Assembly (NCBI GenBank): GCA_947454135.1
Contig: CANGJI010000006.1
Location: forward strand, 1 to 64,000
Source of the DNA: Sphingomonadaceae bacterium
Lineage (GTDB): Bacteria; Pseudomonadota; Alphaproteobacteria; Sphingomonadales; Sphingomonadaceae
Reading direction: 5' to 3'
DNA length: 64,000 nucleotides
Within the stretch, counting starts at the first letter, position 1; each line of letters starts with the position of its first letter. The notes below the pieces were generated by a model, which was not told where the DNA came from, ran no database searches, and saw only the letters and a list, made by a program, of their open reading frames with translations. A program made the position numbers and the translations under genes. This document shows positions 42,890 to 51,210 of this stretch, one piece after another.

Positions 42890-42963
<74 letters not shown>

Positions 42964-43024
42964 GCCCTCCGGCCAAAATCATCCCCACACGTCTAGAAAA
43001 ATGGCGGTTTTCCGGCTATATAGA

Positions 43025-43128
43025 GCACTGGCCTGTCCAGTGCCGTCTATCCCTGTCCATGCAAAGCTAGTGGATTTTGGGGGTCACACTGGGGGTCACA
43101 CGAAACCCATCGGATGGAGTGACCCCCA
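43025..43128. promoter_or_regulatory. Left arm: hairpin and putative integrase arm sites
   Basis: A perfect hairpin, GCACTGG (43,025-43,031) with CCAGTGC (43,037-43,043), is followed by TGGGGGTCACAC twice in exact tandem (43,078-43,089 and 43,090-43,101). An inverted copy GTGACCCCCA (43,119-43,128) touches the integrase start codon. Similar TGGGGGTCAC copies lie at the right end. I infer integrase arm-type binding sites; the copy at the start codon could let the integrase repress itself. Confidence 0.6.
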
Positions 43129-43129
43129 A

Positions 43130-44338
43130 ATGGCTCTGACGGACTCAGCAATCAAGAACGCCAAGCCCAAGGCGACCCAATACAAGCTGCATGACGAGAA
43201 GGGCTTGTTTGCGATTATCCGGCCTACCGGCGGTAAGCTGTGGCGTTTCAAATACCGCTATCATGGCAAGGAGCAGCAACTCTCGCTTGGCACCTATCCC
43301 GAGGTAAGTCTGAAGGACGTGCGCCAGCGCCGCGACGAGGCGCGCCAAATGCTGGCCGAAGGCAAAGACCCCGGCGCAGAGAAGAAGCGGGCGAAGCTCG
43401 TCGAGGCGATCAGCGCAGGCAACACGTTCAGGGCGGTTGCCGAGGAATATATCGAAAAGCAGGGGCGCGAAGGCCGGGCTGAAGCGACACTGGTGAAGGC
43501 CCGCTGGCACCTGTCATTGCTCAAGGCACTTCATCCGCGACCTATCGCGGACATCGAGCCGGTCGAACTGCTGGCCGAGTTGCGAAAGGTCGAGAACGTG
43601 GGGCACCACGAGGCAGCCCGTCAGGTTCGCGCCTTCGCCAGCCGTGTGTTTTGCTATGGCGTGGCGACCACGCGCTGCAAACAGGACGTGTCCGCGCCGT
43701 TGGTTAAGGCCCTGACCACCCCCAAGGTGACGCATCGGGCGGCTATTCTTGATCCGGTAAAGGTCGGGCAACTGCTGCGTGCCATCGACGGGTTTGAAGG
43801 GCAGATCACTACCAAGCTGGCTCTGCGCCTTGCGCCCCATGTCTTCGTACGACCCGGCGAATTGCGTCATGCCGACTGGTCAGAGGTCGACTTCGAGAAC
43901 GCCAAGTGGATTATTCCTGGTGCCAAGACCAAGATGCGGCGTGACCACCATGTGCCGCTCACCCCTCAGTCGTTGACCATCTTGGAGGAGGCGCGGCTGG
44001 TCACTGGCCCTACTGGCTTGATTTTCCCCGGCCTGCGGACCGCCAAGCGCCCTATGAGCGAGAACACCCTGAACGCCGCCTTGCGGCGCATGGGGTATTC
44101 GAAAGACGAGATGACGGCACATGGCTTTAGGACCACGGCCAGCACGTTGCTGAACGAGTCGGGCAAGTGGCGCCCGGACGTGATTGAACGGGCCTTGGCG
44201 CATGTCGAACCGGGCAAAATCCGCCGTGCGTACAATCACGCGGAATACTGGGACGAGCGTGTGGCAATGGCGCAGTGGTGGTCGGACTACCTCGACATGC
44301 TGCGGGATGGGGCGAAAATTATCCCGCTGGTGGCATAA
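43130..44338 (+). CDS. Tyrosine-type site-specific integrase (P4 family, DUF4102)
   Basis: From MALTDSAIKNAKPKATQYKL the protein has 402 residues. The N-terminal DUF4102 domain (DEKGLFAIIRPTGGKLWRFK) precedes a core-binding domain and the catalytic domain. The conserved residues appear in order: Arg in VRPGELRHADW, His in RRDHHVPLT, HxxR in TAHGFRTTAS, and Tyr in NHAEYWDERVAMAQWW. An upstream extension would read through the arm repeats, so I reject it. It catalyses insertion at tRNA-Gly. Confidence 0.93.
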   Translation: MALTDSAIKNAKPKATQYKLHDEKGLFAIIRPTGGKLWRFKYRYHGKEQQLSLGTYPEVSLKDVRQRRDEARQMLAEGKDPGAEKKRAKLVEAISAGNTFRAVAEEYIEKQGREGRAEATLVKARWHLSLLKALHPRPIADIEPVELLAELRKVENVGHHEAARQVRAFASRVFCYGVATTRCKQDVSAPLVKALTTPKVTHRAAILDPVKVGQLLRAIDGFEGQITTKLALRLAPHVFVRPGELRHADWSEVDFENAKWIIPGAKTKMRRDHHVPLTPQSLTILEEARLVTGPTGLIFPGLRTAKRPMSENTLNAALRRMGYSKDEMTAHGFRTTASTLLNESGKWRPDVIERALAHVEPGKIRRAYNHAEYWDERVAMAQWWSDYLDMLRDGAKIIPLVA

Positions 44339-44472
44339 AAATTTTTCCACAAGCAAATGCACTTTAAGTCACTGATTTTACATCACAATCATGCATAAAC
44401 TCAGTGGCACGTGATTAGCCGCGAAACTCGGCTGGCGGGGTGTGGACGCCCTGAGATTGGTGCACAATATGG

Positions 44473-44496
44473 GGGCTCCTTCAACGACAGGAGCCC
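44473..44496 (+). promoter_or_regulatory. Hairpin enclosing the ribosome site of the AlpA-like gene
   Basis: GGGCTCCT (44,473-44,480) pairs perfectly with AGGAGCCC (44,489-44,496) around TCAACGAC. The second arm contains AGGAG, the only good ribosome binding site for the GTG at 44,500. If the hairpin forms in the mRNA, translation is blocked until it is opened. Alternatively it is a regulator operator in DNA. Upstream, at 44,339-44,472, CACTGA (44,370) faces TCAGTG (44,401), and an AGCCG/CGGCT hairpin follows. Confidence 0.6.
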
Positions 44497-44499
44497 GCC

Positions 44500-44733
44500 G
44501 TGAACAAATCATCCCGTGACCTTACGAACCTGCCTCCCGAGGCCATTCTTCGCCTCCCCGAGGTGATTGCAATGGTCCAGCTTAGCCGCGCTTCGATTTA
44601 CGCGCAGGCGGCGCAGCGGTCCTTTCCCCAGCCGATCAAACTGACCGCCCACGCCTCCGGCTGGCGTCTTGGCGACATTCGCGCTTGGCTCGCCAACCCC
44701 ACCGGCTGGACGCCCGCGAACGACAATGCCTGA
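44500..44733 (+). CDS. AlpA-family excisionase-like regulator
   Basis: The GTG-started 77-residue protein has a short N-terminus followed by a winged-helix MerR/AlpA-type DNA-binding motif: ILRLPEVIAMVQLSRASIYA, with SFPQPIKLTAHASGWRLGDI as the wing. AlpA regulators of P4-like elements activate excision or element genes. It is the first gene of a rightward replication unit and overlaps the primase start by 8 bases. Confidence 0.88.
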   Translation: MNKSSRDLTNLPPEAILRLPEVIAMVQLSRASIYAQAAQRSFPQPIKLTAHASGWRLGDIRAWLANPTGWTPANDNA

Positions 44734-45757
44734 CCGCCTCATGTCAATCGCCACTCAACCCAGCGGATGCAAAATGCCCAACACCCAAGTCGCCAAGACC
44801 CCCGGCGGCGACCCGGGGAAACACCTTGAGGCTACGTCTGCCGCCTTCGTGCGGGCGCTGGGCTATCCTCTGCAACTTGTCGCGTTGCACCCTGAAACTG
44901 GCAAGGTGATCGTGCATCACGCAGCCGATGACACGGGGATGGTCAAAGCCATGCAGCAAATGAAGCGCCTTAACGCCGAGGGCTGGAACGACTATTATGA
45001 GACCAACCCGGGCGCGCGGGGTCGTCGCAGCAAGTCTTGCGACATTACCCACGTGCGAGCAGTCGTCGGCGACGTCGATGCCACGAATGGACGCTCTGTG
45101 CAGGATTGTGTCGACGCAGCAGCCGCCCTGCAAATGCTACCGACTTTTACCCTTGCCACGGGTGGCGGGGTTCAGGTGGTTTATCTGCTTGACGAGCTTG
45201 TGCCCGCTAGTCCTGAAACCGTCGCCATTCATGAAGCCGTGGGGCGTGCCATCCGGGACAAAATCGACGGTGATGCCGTTTTCGACTTGGCGCGCATCAT
45301 GCGGATGCCGGGATTCGTAAACTGGCCAAATGCCAAGAAGCGGGCGACTGGCCGTAAGCCGGTCAAGGCCAAGGTGCTGTCCGCGTCGGGGCGGACGTAT
45401 TCGCTGGCGGAACTTGCTCACGCATTTGTCCTGCCCGCAACGATTGCGTCGGTGGTCGCCCCGGCCACCCTCAATGGCGATTTGTCGGGCGGGCGTGCCA
45501 CGGCACATTGGTTCGACGGCTTGGCCCCGGACGACAAGAACGCCTGCCTTGCTGAAATGTTGCAGGTGCCGGACGTGGTGGCGCTGGCCGATACATCCGA
45601 TGGTGCCAGCCCGCCGAATTGGCGGACGGTTCTCGCGGCTTGCGCCCGTTCCGGTGCGCCCAATGCCTATGCCCTGTGTCGCGCGTGGGCGCAGGCCAGT
45701 TCCCGCTTCGATCCGCGCGACTTCGACAACCGTTACAGGAGTTATTGCCATGACTGA
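44726..45757 (+). CDS. AEP/RepB-type DNA primase
   Basis: Starts at ATG 44,726 (343 residues), overlapping AlpA; ATG 44,741 or 44,774 are alternatives. The centre resembles the archaeo-eukaryotic primase fold used by RepB-like replication proteins: VVGDVDATNG supplies two Asp for metal binding, followed by TFTLATGGGVQVVYLL and MRMPGFVNWPNAKK. The C-terminal 100 residues are helical. I infer it primes replication of the element. The DUF3987 gene overlaps it by 8 bases. Confidence 0.75.
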   Translation: MPDRLMSIATQPSGCKMPNTQVAKTPGGDPGKHLEATSAAFVRALGYPLQLVALHPETGKVIVHHAADDTGMVKAMQQMKRLNAEGWNDYYETNPGARGRRSKSCDITHVRAVVGDVDATNGRSVQDCVDAAAALQMLPTFTLATGGGVQVVYLLDELVPASPETVAIHEAVGRAIRDKIDGDAVFDLARIMRMPGFVNWPNAKKRATGRKPVKAKVLSASGRTYSLAELAHAFVLPATIASVVAPATLNGDLSGGRATAHWFDGLAPDDKNACLAEMLQVPDVVALADTSDGASPPNWRTVLAACARSGAPNAYALCRAWAQASSRFDPRDFDNRYRSYCHD

Positions 45758-47378
45758 GCCGCGTATCGGCTTGGGCAGCTTGATCGCCATTGCCCGTCAA
45801 GGTGGCTGGGATGCCAGTCGTTGGATGCATGGGAGTGCCCAAATCGCCCCTTGTGATCCCGCCAACGACACCGGCGACATGGGTACGTCGAATTCCAGCC
45901 AGCCGGGCAAGGTGTGGCCTGCCCCTTCGCCGATCGGGCGCGCACCGCTGCCAGTGCTTCCGTGGGAGCCTCGCTTCCTGCCATCTGTTCTGGCCGACAT
46001 GGTTGTTAGCTATGCCGACTCTATTCCGATGAACCGGGAGTTTCCTGCTTCCAACGTCCTTGCCGCGTGCGGGTCTCTGCTCAGTGATAGGGTGCAACTG
46101 GCTCTCAAGCAGCACGGGCCTTGGTTCGAGACATCGAATAGCTGGGGTTTGAACATCGCTCAGGTTTCCGCGCATAAGACACCCGGCATGACCCCGGTTC
46201 GAGAGAGCCTGAACCGGGTGGAAGAACGCTATCGGCAGGAATACCAGACCGCGCTTGCAGCCTATCAGGCTAACAAGATCGTCTATGATGCACAGTTGGC
46301 GGCGGCTAAGAAAAACGCGGCAGCAAATAACGCTGTGCCGCCATCCCTGTCCCCAGAACCGACTCCGCCGGTGCAGCGCCGGGCCATGACCAACAATGCA
46401 ACACCCGAGGCACTTAGCGTCCTCGCAGGGGGCGGTCCTGTTGTGGTGCTGGACGATGAGGCCTCTGGCCTGTTCTCTCAGATGAACGACCCGAAGAACC
46501 AGCCGGGCAGGGCCTTCTATCTGGCTGCTTACAACGGCAATAGCAGTTTCCAAACCGACCGGATCGGGCGAGGTGCAGTCTATATCCCTCGCCTGTGTGT
46601 ATCGGTGATTGGCAATATCCAGCCGGAACCCCTCCTGCGGATTACGCTCAGTGCCGCGCGCGAAGGGCGGCAGGCTGATGGCTTCATGCAGCGGTTTGGC
46701 CTGATGACGATGCCTGACACTGTGCATCATACAGAACTGGTCGATTTGCCCTATGACATGGCTAAGTGGACTGCTGGGCTGGATGCTATCGCGGGGCTCG
46801 TGGATTACGACCCGGTGCGCCACGGCGCTGTCCCATCGATGCTCGGCGACTCGCTGCCCTATTTCAGGCTCTCAGATGCCGCCAACGCGCTTTGGCGTGA
46901 AGAATACGCGCGGCAACTTGTCGAAAGGGACAACCTCGAGTTGATCGAGGCTTACAGGCAGCATGTGATGAAGCAGCCGAAGGTTATCGCCACGGTGGCA
47001 TTGGTTATTCACGCGGTCGAAGGCCATCACGGCGACATTTCCGGCCCCGTAATGGAACGGGCCATCGCCGCTTCGCGGTTCTACCTGTCCCACGCCAAGC
47101 GGGTTTATCACATGTCGGCGCACGACATCTGCGCGGAACCTGCCCGTCAAATCGCGGCGCGCATGTCCCGGGGCGAAATCACCGGGGAGTTCACCTCCCG
47201 TGAGGCTCAGCGCAGTGGGTGGGCTGGGTGCGACAATGCCGAACGCACCGCCAGCGTGCTGGACGTGCTGGAAGACGCCGACTGGATTCGTCCGGTTGTT
47301 GTGCAGTCTTCAGTGACAGGGGGGCGTCCGCCCAAGCGGTGGCAGGTCAATCTGCTGGCACAGGGCAGCAAGTGGTGA
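45750..47378 (+). CDS. DUF3987 replication-associated protein
   Basis: Begins at ATG 45,750 with AGGAG upstream and has 542 residues. After a Pro-rich linker the DUF3987 region appears (PREFPASNVLAACGSLL-like start in the sequence MNREFPASNVLAACGSLL). A VVVLDDEASGLFSQM segment is placed like a Walker B/DE box, and RLCVSVIGNIQPEPLLRI follows. The C-terminal part has a winged-helix feel (ARMSRGEITGEFTSREAQRS). DUF3987 proteins are RecA/DnaB-like helicase relatives, often without a full Walker A; I see none in the expected place. Probably acts with the primase. Confidence 0.75.
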   Translation: MTEPRIGLGSLIAIARQGGWDASRWMHGSAQIAPCDPANDTGDMGTSNSSQPGKVWPAPSPIGRAPLPVLPWEPRFLPSVLADMVVSYADSIPMNREFPASNVLAACGSLLSDRVQLALKQHGPWFETSNSWGLNIAQVSAHKTPGMTPVRESLNRVEERYRQEYQTALAAYQANKIVYDAQLAAAKKNAAANNAVPPSLSPEPTPPVQRRAMTNNATPEALSVLAGGGPVVVLDDEASGLFSQMNDPKNQPGRAFYLAAYNGNSSFQTDRIGRGAVYIPRLCVSVIGNIQPEPLLRITLSAAREGRQADGFMQRFGLMTMPDTVHHTELVDLPYDMAKWTAGLDAIAGLVDYDPVRHGAVPSMLGDSLPYFRLSDAANALWREEYARQLVERDNLELIEAYRQHVMKQPKVIATVALVIHAVEGHHGDISGPVMERAIAASRFYLSHAKRVYHMSAHDICAEPARQIAARMSRGEITGEFTSREAQRSGWAGCDNAERTASVLDVLEDADWIRPVVVQSSVTGGRPPKRWQVNLLAQGSKW

Positions 47379-47387
47379 GGACAGGGG

Positions 47388-47498
47388 GGGGTTTTGTCGG
47401 TTTTGTCAGTTAGTTCTATGTGTGTTATTCAACAATCTGAACTGCCTGCACAGAACATCCTCTGCACCCATTTCAGGTGACAAAACCGACAAAACCCC
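47388..47498. other. Candidate replication origin: 21-bp perfect inverted repeat of TTTTGTC units
   Basis: GGGGTTTTGTCGGTTTTGTC plus A (47,388-47,408) is the exact reverse complement of 47,478-47,498. Each arm holds two TTTTGTC copies 9 bases apart, making four iteron-like sites around a 69-base centre with an AT-richer left half. It follows the primase and DUF3987 genes directly, where satellite origins often lie. The long loop and repeated units argue against a simple terminator, though the genes on either side are convergent. Confidence 0.6.
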
Positions 47499-47517
47499 TG
47501 CCACGCTGTCTCGTTGG

Positions 47518-48270
47518 CTATCTGAGGTATGAAATCTCCACGCAGCGGCTGCTGCGGCGCCCGGCTAAGGCGGTTAGCTCGCCAACCCATGCCGCAGCCT
47601 CCACCTCCCTGCCATATGCCCGGCAGGCTTCGTCAAATTGCGCGAGCTGGCGATGCGCATCGCCAATCTGCATCCAATCGGGACTAGGTTCGCAGAGCAA
47701 GAGGGGCAGTAGCCTCTCCAGATTTTCGCGCTTCATGTCCTGGCTAGCCTCTGGAACATCTGCCAGCATCCACCCCTGCATGCCGCGTGTGGCGTGGTTC
47801 CACGACCACCAGAGCCAGCGGCGGATTTCCAGTTCCGTCTGGTTGTCAAGGTTCGTGTGCCCGCCGTTGAGCCCATCTAACATCCCACCCAGTCGCGCAG
47901 GGCCGATTGTCGAAAGGTGGGCATACGGATCAGGCCGCAACATCCACGGGTTGGGTTTATTGGCTTTCGGCGCTCGCAATCCCCACCATCGTCTCTTGGT
48001 GGGTGCCTCGTTGACTGGATCGGCGGACGGGCTTGGCGGCCTGACATTCGCTAACCGGTCACTTGTCACCATATAGGCCGGACCTTCAGGCCGAAACATC
48101 GCACCGCAATCACACCCCAGCAATTGCCAGTGGCGTTGATACAATTCACCGAAACCCCAGCCATCCGACCACTGCCGCCAGCCGCGAAAATTAACGCTCG
48201 CCTCATAGGTTGATCGATAGATCATGCTGCAATTCGGGCAGATCATAACTTGGCTGGTCAGACGCGTCAT
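47518..48270 (-). CDS. Hypothetical protein with N-terminal zinc-ribbon-like cysteines
   Basis: From MTRLTSQVMICPNC the protein has 250 residues; a start seven codons upstream is possible. The N-terminus has CPNC and, about 35 residues later, CDC (LGCDCGAMF), likely one zinc site. The central region is Trp-rich (RRWWGLRAPK; RRWLWWSWNHAT), and the C-terminal half is helical. I do not recognise a family. It is the only element gene besides the last one to run leftward, so it is probably expressed separately. Accessory cargo of unknown role. Confidence 0.6.
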   Translation of the reverse strand: MTRLTSQVMICPNCSMIYRSTYEASVNFRGWRQWSDGWGFGELYQRHWQLLGCDCGAMFRPEGPAYMVTSDRLANVRPPSPSADPVNEAPTKRRWWGLRAPKANKPNPWMLRPDPYAHLSTIGPARLGGMLDGLNGGHTNLDNQTELEIRRWLWWSWNHATRGMQGWMLADVPEASQDMKRENLERLLPLLLCEPSPDWMQIGDAHRQLAQFDEACRAYGREVEAAAWVGELTALAGRRSSRCVEISYLR

Positions 48271-48326
48271 AGGCGGCGTGCTAGTCGGCAATCATGGTCT
48301 GAAGCAGGGTGTCTTGCGGAAAGCCC

Positions 48327-48581
48327 GGTCACAAGGCAAAAGACCTATGCCGTTCGTGAAAGCCGAACGGCGGGGCGTGGAAACCCCAACACACAGAACT
48401 CGGTCGTCCAAGAGTTGGAGGCCGGGTGGCATGCGCGCATGTCCAGCCGGTCCGCCGGTAAAGGCGCATGCGCCTGTCTGTGTGTCAGGTTTCCAACATC
48501 CGGCTTTGGCCGTCGCCCCGAGAGGAACATAGGGGGGATGCAGGTGCTAACCGGTAGCAGTCCGCCCCGACTTGGGGGCGG
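48327..48581 (+). ncRNA. Candidate structured RNA (multibranched), strand uncertain
   Basis: Nested long-range pairings are visible: CGGGGCG (48,371-48,377) with CGCCCCG (48,514-48,520); GGAAACC (48,379-48,385) with GGTTTCC (48,488-48,494); ACACACAG (48,389-48,396) with CTGTGTGT (48,478-48,485). Inside are hairpins AACTC/GAGTT (48,397-48,416), CCGG-TGGCATG/CATG-CCA-CCGG (48,422-48,450) and GGCG/CGCC (48,463-48,474). CGGC/GCCG (48,501-48,512) branches between two stems. Flanking hairpins are GCCGTTCG/CGAACGGC (48,349-48,371), TGCTA/TAGCA (48,545-48,559) and CCGCCCC/GGGGCGG (48,562-48,581). I recognise no known RNA family; plus strand is a guess from the final hairpin. Confidence 0.6.
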
Positions 48582-48584
48582 GCG

Positions 48585-49526
48585 ATGTTTAAGAATTTTT
48601 GGCTGGCAGCCATGCTTGGCTTTGCAGCTTTCAGTCCCGCCCGTGCGAGCCAGACTTATTATATTCCAGCCGTTGACCCAACAGTCGAAGGGTCTGCGGA
48701 CCTCTTTGATGATGGAGTTACCCGGCAGCAGGCCTATAAGTTGGCGGGTGTCTGTGAGTACAACAAACTGTCTCAGGCCGATCGCGAGATATGTAATGGC
48801 CGAGGGCAGGGAGACGCGAAAACGCCAAGAGATAACGTTGGTGAGGTGGCGACGGATTTCACAAAGGTCGCTATGGATCATGCCGCGCATACGCACCTGA
48901 TCGCGAGCTATGATCCTAACATGGTGTATAGGGGAACACAGTTGCCAGTCGCTATCAATCCAAACGAGTTTCACTACATAGACTATGGCTTATCGGCACA
49001 CGAGCCTTTGCCAGATTTCTCAGTATATCAGTGGAGCATCCTCACTGGCGCTATCGTGGCATTTCTTTTGATTGATTTTCTGGCGAACTTACTAAAACCG
49101 ATCCCATTTACTCACAGATGGCGTTCTACCGCATGCGTGGCGGGCGTGGCCGGAGCCGGTTTCGCATCACTGCAACACGCTTACGATTGGGAGCAAGCAT
49201 CCGGCCAATTCAAAATAATGCTTTCCGAGCATCCGCTGGCATCCGGCGTGGGAGCCATTGCCCCCGTTCTTGTGGTGTCTCTAGTGCTTTGGGGCTTCGC
49301 CCGATGGCGGGCTTTGAAAAGTGTACGCACCTCGGTCATCTCTGAGGCAGAAGAGCCGAGGGCTACTGAAGAGTTTTATCGCCAAGCGGGCATTGAGCTA
49401 CGAGACGGGAGCTGTGATCCCGCGCTATGGGCTCGTGCGCTGGTGGAAGGAAACGGCGATGATGGTAAAACAAGGGCCGCGTATGTGAAATTGCGGGTTG
49501 CCGATTTGCAGCGAAAACCCTCCTGA
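48585..49526 (+). CDS. Hypothetical exported membrane protein
   Basis: This 313-residue protein begins with a signal peptide (FWLAAMLGFAAFSPARA) and an exported region with two Cys (LAGVCEYNKLSQADREICNG). Membrane helices follow at WSILTGAIVAFLLIDFLANLL, TACVAGVAGAGFASL and VGAIAPVLVVSLVLWGFA, then a charged cytoplasmic tail (EEPRATEEFYRQAGIEL). It is less GC-rich than the chromosome, as expected for a transferred gene. The start ATG directly follows the last hairpin of the structured region. No family recognised. Confidence 0.6.
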   Translation: MFKNFWLAAMLGFAAFSPARASQTYYIPAVDPTVEGSADLFDDGVTRQQAYKLAGVCEYNKLSQADREICNGRGQGDAKTPRDNVGEVATDFTKVAMDHAAHTHLIASYDPNMVYRGTQLPVAINPNEFHYIDYGLSAHEPLPDFSVYQWSILTGAIVAFLLIDFLANLLKPIPFTHRWRSTACVAGVAGAGFASLQHAYDWEQASGQFKIMLSEHPLASGVGAIAPVLVVSLVLWGFARWRALKSVRTSVISEAEEPRATEEFYRQAGIELRDGSCDPALWARALVEGNGDDGKTRAAYVKLRVADLQRKPS

Positions 49527-49569
49527 ATCGCACTTAGCACATACCAAATAAGAGCGAGATTTGAGCGTC

Positions 49570-50010
49570 ATGGGAAGTCAGGTCAGAGCATCATGCCCTT
49601 GTGGCTACCGAAGAACTTTCACGGTTGGTGGCTCACGACAGTCTCGCCTCACCGAGAGCTATTTCCCATATCGCTGCATGGACTGCGGGATAGTCGAGGT
49701 GAACATCGCAGCCGAGTTCCCGGTGTGCCCAAATGCGGCCCATCATGAACTACTGAGGCTAGGTGGAAGTTTTCGAGACCGGATGGCGCGACGTGACGCA
49801 TACGAAGCCAGCAAGAGACCGCACAAGAGAAGCCTTCTGGAACGCTGGGGGCTGCGAAAGCCGCAGCCCGTTATACCTATCGAGCCGGTGCCGGACTTAG
49901 ATGTAGAGGTGCAGTGGGGCGACCATGAAATTTATGATGAAGCGTACGATTGCCCCCGGTGCGGGCAAGAGGCGCTGCATTTCAAGCCAACCGGGCTTAT
50001 GTTTGACTGA
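49570..50010 (+). CDS. Hypothetical protein with zinc-ribbon-like cysteine pairs
   Basis: About 146 residues from ATG 49,570; a TTG nine bases earlier is possible. Cysteine pairs CPCG, CMDCG and CPRCG, with a lone Cys in FPVCPN, suggest two zinc ribbons, one at each end of the chain. The middle is basic (SKRPHKRSLLERW). The layout resembles small nucleic-acid or protein-binding accessory factors, but no family is recognised. It lies 12 bases before the next gene and is likely co-transcribed with it. Confidence 0.6.
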   Translation: MGSQVRASCPCGYRRTFTVGGSRQSRLTESYFPYRCMDCGIVEVNIAAEFPVCPNAAHHELLRLGGSFRDRMARRDAYEASKRPHKRSLLERWGLRKPQPVIPIEPVPDLDVEVQWGDHEIYDEAYDCPRCGQEALHFKPTGLMFD

Positions 50011-50022
50011 TGAGGGGGTGGA

Positions 50023-50337
50023 ATGTCGCAAGGAACAAAGAGTGCGGGTGGTGAAGAATATATCTGGCCGCTCAACGGGTTGATTTCCCGCCTCAAGGCT
50101 GATCCCGGCTATTATCTCGCAGTGTTCGTGGCGGGTGCTGTCGCTGGGAATGTTTTGACCACCAACGTTTTTGGTTATCAATCCGTTGAAGAGTGTTTGG
50201 CGAGGGAGATGAAGGGCTCACCTCCTGGACCCGCCATTGGGGCTGCCAGAGATTATTGTGAAAGCCTGTTTCCGCCTCGGCCTGTCAAAGCAGATGTGGA
50301 AACTGCGATAGCAGCGGATGCTTCGGAGGCACCTTAA
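50023..50337 (+). CDS. Hypothetical single-span membrane protein
   Basis: The 104-residue protein has GAGGGGGTGG before its ATG. One hydrophobic segment (YYLAVFVAGAVAGNVLTTNVF, about residues 30-50) is probably a membrane helix. Two Cys (EECLARE and DYCESLF) flank a Pro-rich section that could be periplasmic or cytoplasmic. The 3' end overlaps the convergent gene by 4 bases. No family recognised. Confidence 0.55.
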   Translation: MSQGTKSAGGEEYIWPLNGLISRLKADPGYYLAVFVAGAVAGNVLTTNVFGYQSVEECLAREMKGSPPGPAIGAARDYCESLFPPRPVKADVETAIAADASEAP

Positions 50338-50825
50338 GTCGCAGCGGTTGGCAACACGATGTTGACGCTGAACTTTGCCTGTTGCTGCATTTCCGGCTCT
50401 GCATACAACCCCTGCAACTTCGCTGCTGCCTCAACCCCGCGATGAAGCTGGCCGCTAACTGCCGCCAACGCCGAGTGCAGGTTGTCGGATGCCGCAGCGT
50501 CCGCCGCGCCTTCCAGCCGATCCAGTGACCTGCCCAGCCGGTCAAGCAAGCCGGTCAGCGTCAGCACTTCCGCTGCACTTGGCATATCACCCATAACAAT
50601 CGCCTTAGCTCTCTCAACTGGGGCACGGGTCTCGCGGATGGGGGCGAGCACCTTCGCGGCGGCGGCCAGCTTGGGAGCCAAACAATTGGTCCTGTGCCTA
50701 CCAAGGGCCGACTTGCTAACGCCGTATTGCGCTGAGGTGGGAATGAGCGTGCCGCCAGCGGACAGCGCCGCGTCAATCGCGGTCAGGTCGGGGCGTTGGC
50801 AGATGGAGCAAGCGGGGGAAGCCAT
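50334..50825 (-). CDS. Hypothetical HTH protein, possibly terminase small subunit-like
   Basis: 163 residues. The N-terminus has CSICQRPDLTAIDAAL and a helix-turn-helix-like segment, TSAQYGVSKSALGRHRTNC, where the flanking cysteines may bind zinc. A helical middle (LLDRLGRSLDRLEGAADAAA) and a C-terminal strand (AKFSVNIVLPT) give the arrangement DNA-binding domain, oligomerisation helix and tail seen in phage small terminases. That likeness is by eye only; it could be a simple regulator. If TerS-like, it could redirect helper phage packaging. Confidence 0.5.
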   Translation of the reverse strand: MASPACSICQRPDLTAIDAALSAGGTLIPTSAQYGVSKSALGRHRTNCLAPKLAAAAKVLAPIRETRAPVERAKAIVMGDMPSAAEVLTLTGLLDRLGRSLDRLEGAADAAASDNLHSALAAVSGQLHRGVEAAAKLQGLYAEPEMQQQAKFSVNIVLPTAAT

Positions 50826-51196
50826 GCGTGATACAATATCACATGGCGCGAATCGTGGCCAGCTTTCCCGGCTTTCCCATGTAGCGGTTGCGGTGCGTGG
50901 GAATGGTGAGTGACGGTAGGGGGGCAGTGCGCTGTGGTCCCATACCCTCCCCCCCCCGAGGGGGCTGCGCTTGCCAGCCCATCAAATCCAAGCCGTCATG
51001 GCGGCGGCGTTACTCCGGTGGGCGGGTGGAATTGGACTTGCCTGCGACAGCGCGAGCAGTGTCAAACTGAGGCACGTTACATGCTAACAACGGTGCAAAA
51101 CTGGGGGCACCGGCGAGGTTTGGGGGTCACATTGGGGGTCATTTAAAAACCGTATTGGAAAATATGACTATTTATCAGATAAATAATGCCACTCCG
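50826..51196. promoter_or_regulatory. Right arm of the element: integrase arm sites and palindrome, no gene
   Basis: No convincing gene is present between 50,826 and 51,477. TGGGGGCAC (51,102-51,110), TGGGGGTCAC (51,121-51,130) and TGGGGGTCA (51,133-51,141) mirror the left-arm repeats. TATTTATC-A-GATAAATA (51,169-51,185) is a perfect AT-rich palindrome 11 bases from the attR core, suitable for a bending protein or excisionase. The run CCCCCCCCCGAGGGGG near 50,949 may form a hairpin. From 51,211 to 51,477 nothing is recognised. Confidence 0.55.
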
Positions 51197-51210
51197 CGAT
51201 TCCCGCTACC
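51197..51210 (+). other. attR core (14-bp direct repeat, right copy)
   Basis: CGATTCCCGCTACC, identical to 42,943-42,956 of tRNA-Gly. The bases after it (GCCA) differ from the tRNA end, so the copy no longer encodes a full acceptor stem. It marks the likely right boundary of the element. Confidence 0.65.

Follow-up and report, generated by a model that had tools for sequence, protein, structure and literature searches.

A conserved structured RNA of sphingomonads, a candidate antisense leader with a core related to sRNA-Xcc1

We found that a region of the window (the whole stretch of 64,000 nucleotides that was analysed) is a conserved structured RNA of the plus strand. Sequence and structure support the kinship of its core with sRNA-Xcc1, and on balance we favour the reading that the element is a self-silencing antisense leader of the gene downstream, working like the C4 and sRNA-Xcc1 antisense RNAs. 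The sphingomonad branch, which is absent from Rfam, is new, while its kind, the sRNA-Xcc1/C4-type antisense RNA, is known.

Structure and covariation of the element

The region, 48327–48581 (255 nt), had been predicted to hold nested stems within a mobile element. As the original prediction had proposed, both strands were folded and compared with dinucleotide shuffles. The plus strand folded at −123.6 kcal/mol, against −102.6 ± 4.6 kcal/mol in 200 shuffles (z = −4.55), and no shuffle was equal or better. The similar value on the opposite strand (z = −4.65) is as expected, because the region is rich in inverted repeats. The long-range stems named beforehand, GGAAACC/GGTTTCC and ACACACAG/CTGTGTGT, are present in the sequence and in the fold; they enclose CTCGGTC..GGCCGGG and GCATGCGC..GCGCATGC, and compensatory changes in the long-range and the enclosed helices were seen among homologues. 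The idea of a single static multibranched fold did not survive, as the nested stems are instead antisense pairings, a1/a′ and b1/b′, around a possible small-RNA core. The boundaries also need trimming, the conserved part of the structured RNA being approximately 48349–48512.

The predicted location inside a mobile element was confirmed. The region lies within an integrative element of about 8.2 kb (42890–51210 of the window), bounded on the left by a tRNA gene and on the right by a partial repeat of it; the right end is tentative because this repeat lacks the 3′ end of the tRNA. Besides the integrase, the element carries AlpA, a protein without a Pfam match, DUF3987 and several unknown genes. 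The features of the integrative element and of the RNA are as follows.

42890–42963: tRNA-Gly(tcc), left end of the integrative element
43001–44338: tyrosine integrase with Arm-DNA-bind_3, in the integrative element
48314–48342, plus: promoter-like site TTGCGG-N17-CAAAAG, its −35-like TTGC conserved at this distance
48349–48371, plus: 5′ hairpin GCCGTTCG/CGAACGGC with a loop like GTGAAAGC, drawn by eye
48372–48387, plus: a1 hairpin GGGG(CGTGGAAA)CCCC, with the a1 target segment GTGGAAACC at 48377–48385
48389–48396, plus: b1 target segment, the first strand of the ACACACAG/CTGTGTGT stem
48399–48426, plus: precursor hairpin CUCGGUC..GGCCGGG, 95.6% of cells paired, inner stem included
48421–48504, plus: three-stem core of about 85 nt, which folds alone and covaries in 41 sequences
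48421–48428/48497–48504, plus: closing stem of the core, 99.1% paired
48429–48436/48464–48471, plus: second stem of the core, with an inner hairpin at 48447–48450/48455–48458
48473–48476/48486–48489, plus: third stem of the core, CCUG/CAGG, carrying b′ in its loop
48478–48485, plus: b′ antisense segment, in the loop of the third core stem
48488–48497, plus: a′ antisense segment GGTTTCCAAC, just before the closing strand, covarying with a1
48501–48504/48509–48512, plus: alternative hairpin CGGC/GCCG, competing for the 3′ strand of the closing stem
48512–48539, plus: hairpin after the core, imperfect in the window, with an RBS-like loop GAGAGGAACATAGG (48520–48533) and an ATG at 48538
48585–49526, plus: downstream ORF of 313 aa without a Pfam match, by eye a secreted or membrane protein
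51197: 14-bp repeat of tRNA sequence, CGATTCCCGCTACC, right end of the integrative element

Covariation in homologues, the second check that had been proposed, was strong. In a MAFFT alignment of 17 sequences (A1, the basis of the covariance model R1), 86.8% of cells were paired in the nested structure and 59 cells carried two-sided changes, compared with 22 in shuffles; the alternative structure with the closing stem scored about equally. At a1/a′, A1 contained G-C, C-G and A-U at one pair and A-U and U-A at another. Because the variable b helix is misaligned in A1, with 40.7% of its cells paired, the b1/b′ helix was tested separately, locus by locus: 151 of 154 distinct sphingomonad loci had their own helix of at least 6 bp, compared with 22% when partners were swapped between loci. 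A MAFFT alignment of the core alone (A5, 41 sequences) had 95.6% of cells paired, and 18 of its 24 pairs showed two-sided changes. These amounted to 180 cells, against 56 ± 5.5 in shuffles, with none of 500 shuffles reaching 180, and the signal was lost when partners were slid by 1–3 columns. All pair counts come from A1 and A5 rather than from cmsearch-fitted alignments. On the plus strand, the core alignment held 64 G-U cells and 9 A-C cells; therefore, the plus-strand RNA is the selected form. Folded alone, the core of the window took the three-stem form at −41.7 kcal/mol, an only moderate excess over shuffles (z = −1.67, 10/200 as good).

Several helices of the element compete with one another. 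The precursor hairpin and the closing stem are mutually exclusive, since the 3′ strand of the former is the 5′ strand of the latter, and GGCCGGG can thus pair with CUCGGUC or with CAUCCGGC. At the other end, CCGGC has two possible partners, the closing strand and the GCCG that follows; this pattern occurred in 142 of 153 sphingomonad loci, compared with 14.6% of shuffles. The a1 hairpin, whose stem is kept in 98.5% of cells and has one pair varying on both sides (to GAGG/CCTC), competes with the outer pairing GGGGCG/CGCCCC. A hairpin of at least 8 bp follows the core in 53% of sphingomonad loci (7% of shuffles), and in 89 of 153 loci the last hairpin contains an RBS-like GAGWGG..ACATAGG. The ATG at 48538, where other members begin their gene, is out of frame with the ORF at 48585. 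The unpaired segments AUGUCCA, AAA and AAC are invariant. A GG occupies 48420–48421 at the closing stem; C4 has its RNase P processing site at a GG on the 5′ side of this stem.

Upstream, 131 of 154 distinct sphingomonad loci had TTG[CA] 62 to 52 nt before the core start, compared with 5.8% of shuffles. At the −10 of these promoter-like sites, which lies approximately 35 nt before the start of the core, the sequence is an atypical GC[CA]A instead of TATAAT, and a promoter with such a −10 and a nearly fixed TTGC −35 is possibly weak or specially regulated. The promoter-like site would place the transcript start near 48345–48350. By eye, a hairpin occupies the position of the 5′ hairpin in most printed relatives and at the printed C4 loci (RF01695).

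Distribution, downstream genes and changing b segments

A plain DNA search matched the element in 11 of 98 relatives, the own genome included, and in 13 plasmid records of Sphingobium, Novosphingobium, Sphingomonas and Tardibacter; the same search of a phage collection gave no match. The covariance model R1 reached further (E ≤ 0.001), with matches in 76/195 genomes of the genus, 72/296 of the order, 24/289 of the class and 16/299 of a phylum sample, 7 of the 16 lying outside the class. These samples overlap, contain genomes from which the model was built (the own genome among them) and were searched with Infernal's stricter filters; E-values from R1, as from the core model R2 below, are rough owing to a short calibration. 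R1 recovered the element in 82/82 of the sources given to it (83 matches) and in 39/39 of a second set, some matches being cut by the end of the stretch. Several genomes held 3 to 5 copies. Culturable carriers include Sphingobium indicum UT26S, with a copy at about 66.7 kb of plasmid pCHQ1, and Novosphingobium resinovorum SA1, with one on pSA2. A pattern scan of named genomes gave at least 119 stretches, nearly all sphingomonad by title among the matches listed, and two viral contigs contain the pattern.

Some copies were interrupted or paired. In one relative (L018, G005:C1, approximately 3112600–3114400), the RNA is split after a′ by about 1.5 kb, by eye an IS110-type transposase, and the earlier thought of a group II intron was dropped on that account. 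Annotated IS110 genes also lie close to further copies of the RNA, at L010, L014 and L016. Sphingomonas tagetis contig32 (L166) carries two divergent copies about 210 bp apart (2491–2629 minus and 2839–2981 plus), which differ in their a and b segments. Tandem weak R1 matches of 36–44 bits, about 200 nt from start to start, were found at G035:C96:24132-24471 and G470:C5:127124-127470.

The genes behind the leader are unrelated to one another. Downstream ORFs were picked by script, and some are doubtful (at L101, for instance, a smaller ORF is closer to the leader than the tape-measure gene). The 124 sphingomonad ORFs fell by script into 67 clusters; with other Alphaproteobacteria added, 152 ORFs formed 90 clusters, the largest of 21 and 11. 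Pfam, PADLOC and PHROGs tallies were made on 78 of 94 picked proteins, the other 16 being near-duplicates or doubtful ORFs. Among the 78 proteins, 47 Pfam families were represented, including ECF sigma factors (9), DUF805 (5), SHOCT (5) and GGDEF (3), with outer-membrane barrels, DUF4268, ORF6N, HSDR_N, resolvase and others among the remaining types. Defence cargo was discarded as a general link, PADLOC matches being scattered among these proteins. The downstream protein of the window had no relatives in IMG/VR. At L009 the annotated sigma-factor gene begins 30 nt behind the core match, and at L010 and L017 an in-frame ATG of the sigma-factor gene lies at the same distance, the annotated start of L010 being later. 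Three loci (L014, L015, L016) have the leader before a GGDEF gene, with a long GCCGGCACGTCTCC..GGGGCGTGCCGCCGGC hairpin after the core; this version is found repeatedly on plasmids, alongside a histidine kinase and a globin.

We investigated the b pairing in 48 pairs of sphingomonad loci with downstream proteins at least 60% identical, using cross-pairing between loci since letter identity of the b segments is a weak measure. The own b1/b′ helix reached at least 6 bp in 48/48 (mean 7.7), whereas the cross helix averaged 5.2, compared with 4.8 for random partners in an earlier count. In 22 of the 48 pairs, cross-pairing still reached 6 bp in one direction or both. Among the nine pairs with proteins at least 90% identical, eight had lost cross-pairing (own 6–10 bp, cross 3–6 bp). 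Pairs without it were L005/L039, L006/L031/L035, L065/L188, L151/L194 (both in Sphingomonas desiccabilis), L014/L080 and L016/L080; it was kept in L014/L016 (proteins at least 90% identical) and also in L012/L013, L057/L075, L008/L042 and L125/L130. The cores of locus pairs with similar downstream proteins were otherwise 0.78–0.99 identical. We read this frequent change of b pairing between near-identical downstream genes as a fast-changing specificity. Of 22 pairs of copies in the same genome, 21 differed in their b segments and one consisted of identical duplicates, but this count is no evidence by itself because random pairs agree in only 0.5%, and also because the two copies in one such genome pair poorly with themselves.

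Proposed mechanism and alternative readings

As an antisense leader, the element would work in the following way. Transcription from the promoter just upstream would produce first the 5′ target a1-b1 and then the compact three-stem core, whose exposed a′ and b′ segments are complementary to that target. Once released by processing, or refolded, the core would pair with a1-b1 on its own transcript or, acting in trans, on that of another copy. Such pairing would decide whether the nascent leader keeps the closing stem or the competing hairpins. By way of the hairpin that follows the core, the choice of helices would set how far the next gene is expressed, presumably by repression. Once resident, a copy would shut down its own expression and that of any newcomer carrying identical a and b sequences, while an element that enters a naive cell would stay active until sufficient core RNA had built up, which would make the leader an entry timer.

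The output step is the weakest link of this mechanism. In constrained folding of the window, the a1b1/a′b′ state was favoured by 13 kcal/mol, with little change between the two states in how far the RBS was unpaired (0.82 v 0.79). The value for the start codon at 48538 fell from 0.22 to 0.05, while that at 48585 moved in the opposite direction, from 0.34 to 0.45. Further points count against the mechanism: the window and the sphingomonad branch show no second target copy (a2-b2, see below) beyond controls, the own genome has no further exact a1..b1 site, the flanks gave no signal of one (40 of 131 loci v 29% in the control), and cross-pairing persists in 22 of the 48 locus pairs.

A leader with mutually exclusive helices could also be a riboswitch that senses a small molecule, its exclusive pairings forming an aptamer and an expression platform. 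The leader position, the invariant unpaired AUGUCCA, AAA and AAC and the hairpin or terminator-like site behind the core would suit this, and a signal of a general kind, for instance a second messenger, would be compatible with all the evidence that follows. For one ligand, however, the downstream genes look too mixed: 67 clusters among 124 ORFs and 47 Pfam families among 78 proteins do not amount to functional coherence. Because the downstream genes are unrelated, a one-ligand riboswitch was rejected as the best reading. Leaders of near-identical genes often differ in their most variable helix, the core is related to a small RNA that ran at about 100 nt on blots from Xanthomonas (PMC2996969), and Rfam found no match in the window to a known riboswitch aptamer family. 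We therefore regard a riboswitch as unlikely.

We think it similarly improbable that the element is a free-standing gene for a trans-acting small RNA, the usual description of sRNA-Xcc1, merely placed before other genes. It has its own promoter-like site, and 9 of 29 other alphaproteobacterial loci have a terminator-like site after the core, but only 4 of 129 sphingomonad loci have one, near the background of about 2%. At 90/170 loci an ORF of 70 aa or more, equipped with a Shine-Dalgarno, begins no further than 170 nt downstream, compared with 20/170 divergently upstream, and the RBS-like motif is built into the last hairpin. The own genome (approximately 93% complete) contained no second exact a1..b1 site, only the element itself.

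That the region is a DNA element, a recombination or replication site folding single-stranded, fits the inverted repeats, the mobile-element setting and the copy split by an IS110-type insertion (by eye), but the plus-strand excess of G-U over A-C cells (64 v 9) speaks against a purely DNA-level structure such as had been suggested for replication, the promoter-like site and gene orientation are conserved, and we consider this explanation highly improbable.

Returning to the antisense leader, a broader reading is that a large uncatalogued alphaproteobacterial branch, freed from phage anti-repressors, serves as a general plug-in switch for mobile cargo genes, with a rapidly diversifying specificity tag in each copy and a role in RNA-based immunity or incompatibility. 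We put this forward tentatively and would not be surprised to see it fail. If it is true, a gene would be expressed on entry, silenced once resident and blocked if the cell holds a copy with the same tag, and sRNA-Xcc1 and C4 would be other branches of one system. On the narrower reading as an antisense leader, the C4/sRNA-Xcc1 kind of regulation would extend to Alphaproteobacteria, and sRNA-Xcc1 would gain a testable mode of action, with a1-b1 and a2-b2 on its own transcript as targets. The leader also suggests a common RNA rule for keeping accessory genes on plasmids, prophages and islands quiet.

Relation to sRNA-Xcc1 and C4

The original prediction had called the region a possible regulatory RNA of no known family. 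The Rfam search that it proposed gave no family at the family's own thresholds: release 15 returned nothing at gathering score on the window, and the element went unrecognised there and in the loci scanned. The core and layout nevertheless place the element with sRNA-Xcc1 and C4, so only the absence from Rfam stands, and regulation is a role that we infer. In a permissive search of the region itself, c4-a1b1 (RF03163) matched at 48345–48391 with 12.7 bits (cut-off 46.7), which is not significant; that this match is by eye in register with a1-b1 was noted only afterwards. Twister-sister (13.2 bits) and one snoRNA (12.4 bits) were likewise insignificant and below cut-off. The HEARO/IscB guide RNA, the TnpB guide RNA and the integron attC, also considered, had no supporting Rfam match. 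Of the other roles suggested beforehand, a ribozyme and a helper-phage decoy gained no support from these Rfam searches. RF02221 (sRNA-Xcc1, cut-off 53 bits) had no match in the window or its region and RF01695 (C4, cut-off 45 bits) was not reached in the window; neither matched the own genome at E ≤ 0.001. At one locus (L099, 1877–1961 plus), an sRNA-Xcc1 match above cut-off (56.2 bits) lies near an R1 match on the other strand.

Because distant relatives gave sub-threshold sRNA-Xcc1 matches in one register (7 of 18 distant loci, 27.5–32.6 bits against a cut-off of 53), we examined loci found with RF02221. In the phylum, this family matched 43 of 200 genomes at E ≤ 0.001, 30 of them over the cut-off. 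Thirty RF02221 loci, fetched with Rfam's own model and thus independent of R1 and R2, were searched with R2, a core covariance model built from alphaproteobacterial sequences only. R2 found 18 of the 30 at E ≤ 0.1, in the RF02221 register and strand, and 11 of the 30 at E ≤ 0.01 (best 1.1e-6); the other 12 were not found. It also found 14/14 phage-type and class-level loci (1.9e-9 to 1.3e-14), all of them fetched with the related model R1. By eye, many of 27 printed RF02221 loci are likewise preceded by this a1 hairpin and b1. Kinship of the core with sRNA-Xcc1 is thus supported at the level of sequence and predicted structure. Since R2 found none of 20 C4 loci (RF01695), the kinship with C4 is one of layout, the 18 printed loci having the same order of a1-b1, core and a2-b2.

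We tested for a2-b2, defined as a pair of complementary stretches no more than about 130 nt behind the core, in 24 of the 30 RF02221 loci and 18 of the 20 RF01695 loci; an RBS was not required, and its placement was judged by eye. Both parts were found in 14/24 RF02221 loci (4% with swapped partners) and in 15/18 RF01695 loci (9%), and by eye the RF02221 a2-b2 lies at the Shine-Dalgarno of the next gene in many loci. Outside the class, 6 of 7 loci had a2-b2, as did 30% of 33 other alphaproteobacterial loci (12% in controls); several such loci, outside the class or alphaproteobacterial phage-type, precede anti-repressor-like genes. The sphingomonad branch showed none beyond controls (13% of 131 loci v 12%), and the window is also without it. 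Many RF02221 loci (L250–L277) have by eye CCGC..GCGG followed by T runs between a1-b1 and the core, and C4 loci have by eye a terminator-like stretch at the same place. This stretch could be an attenuator on which the antisense RNA acts.

As described in PMC5320573, C4 is processed by RNase P and consists of three stem-loops, of which the a′ and b′ loops base-pair with target mRNAs, the b′ loop doing so at ribosome-binding sites. PMC2996969 reports that sRNA-Xcc1 was cloned, detected at about 100 nt on blots from Xanthomonas and mapped to a length of 88 nt, and PMC12444791 places it upstream of symE in a widespread integron cassette. In the excerpts available of PMC2996969, PMC12444791 and PMC12189769, it is described as a virulence-linked small RNA with targets predicted only, and a C4-type mechanism is not stated. 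A full-text literature search, with most subscription literature outside its reach, returned no paper joining 'C4 antisense' with 'Alphaproteobacteria'.

The element shares with sRNA-Xcc1 (RF02221) a detectable core architecture and kinship (R2 hits in 18/30 and the core fold), in which a closing stem, a hairpin and a third hairpin are followed by a′ before the closing strand. Unlike the sphingomonad branch, Xcc1 loci often have a2-b2 behind the core, and by eye a terminator-like stretch between b1 and the core is common in them, whereas sphingomonad loci are by eye without one. From C4 (RF01695) it differs in core sequence (R2 0/20) and in lacking the a2-b2 present in 15/18 C4 loci. With C4 of phages P1 and P7 (RF01695/RF03163), the kind of RNA by which P1 silences genes of its own, it shares the order of 5′ hairpin, a1 hairpin, b1 and three-stem core, and in both the a′ and b′ of the core are complementary to a1 and b1 upstream. 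It also resembles the CI RNA immunity of phage P4, in which antisense pairing takes place within an untranslated leader, an upstream target included.
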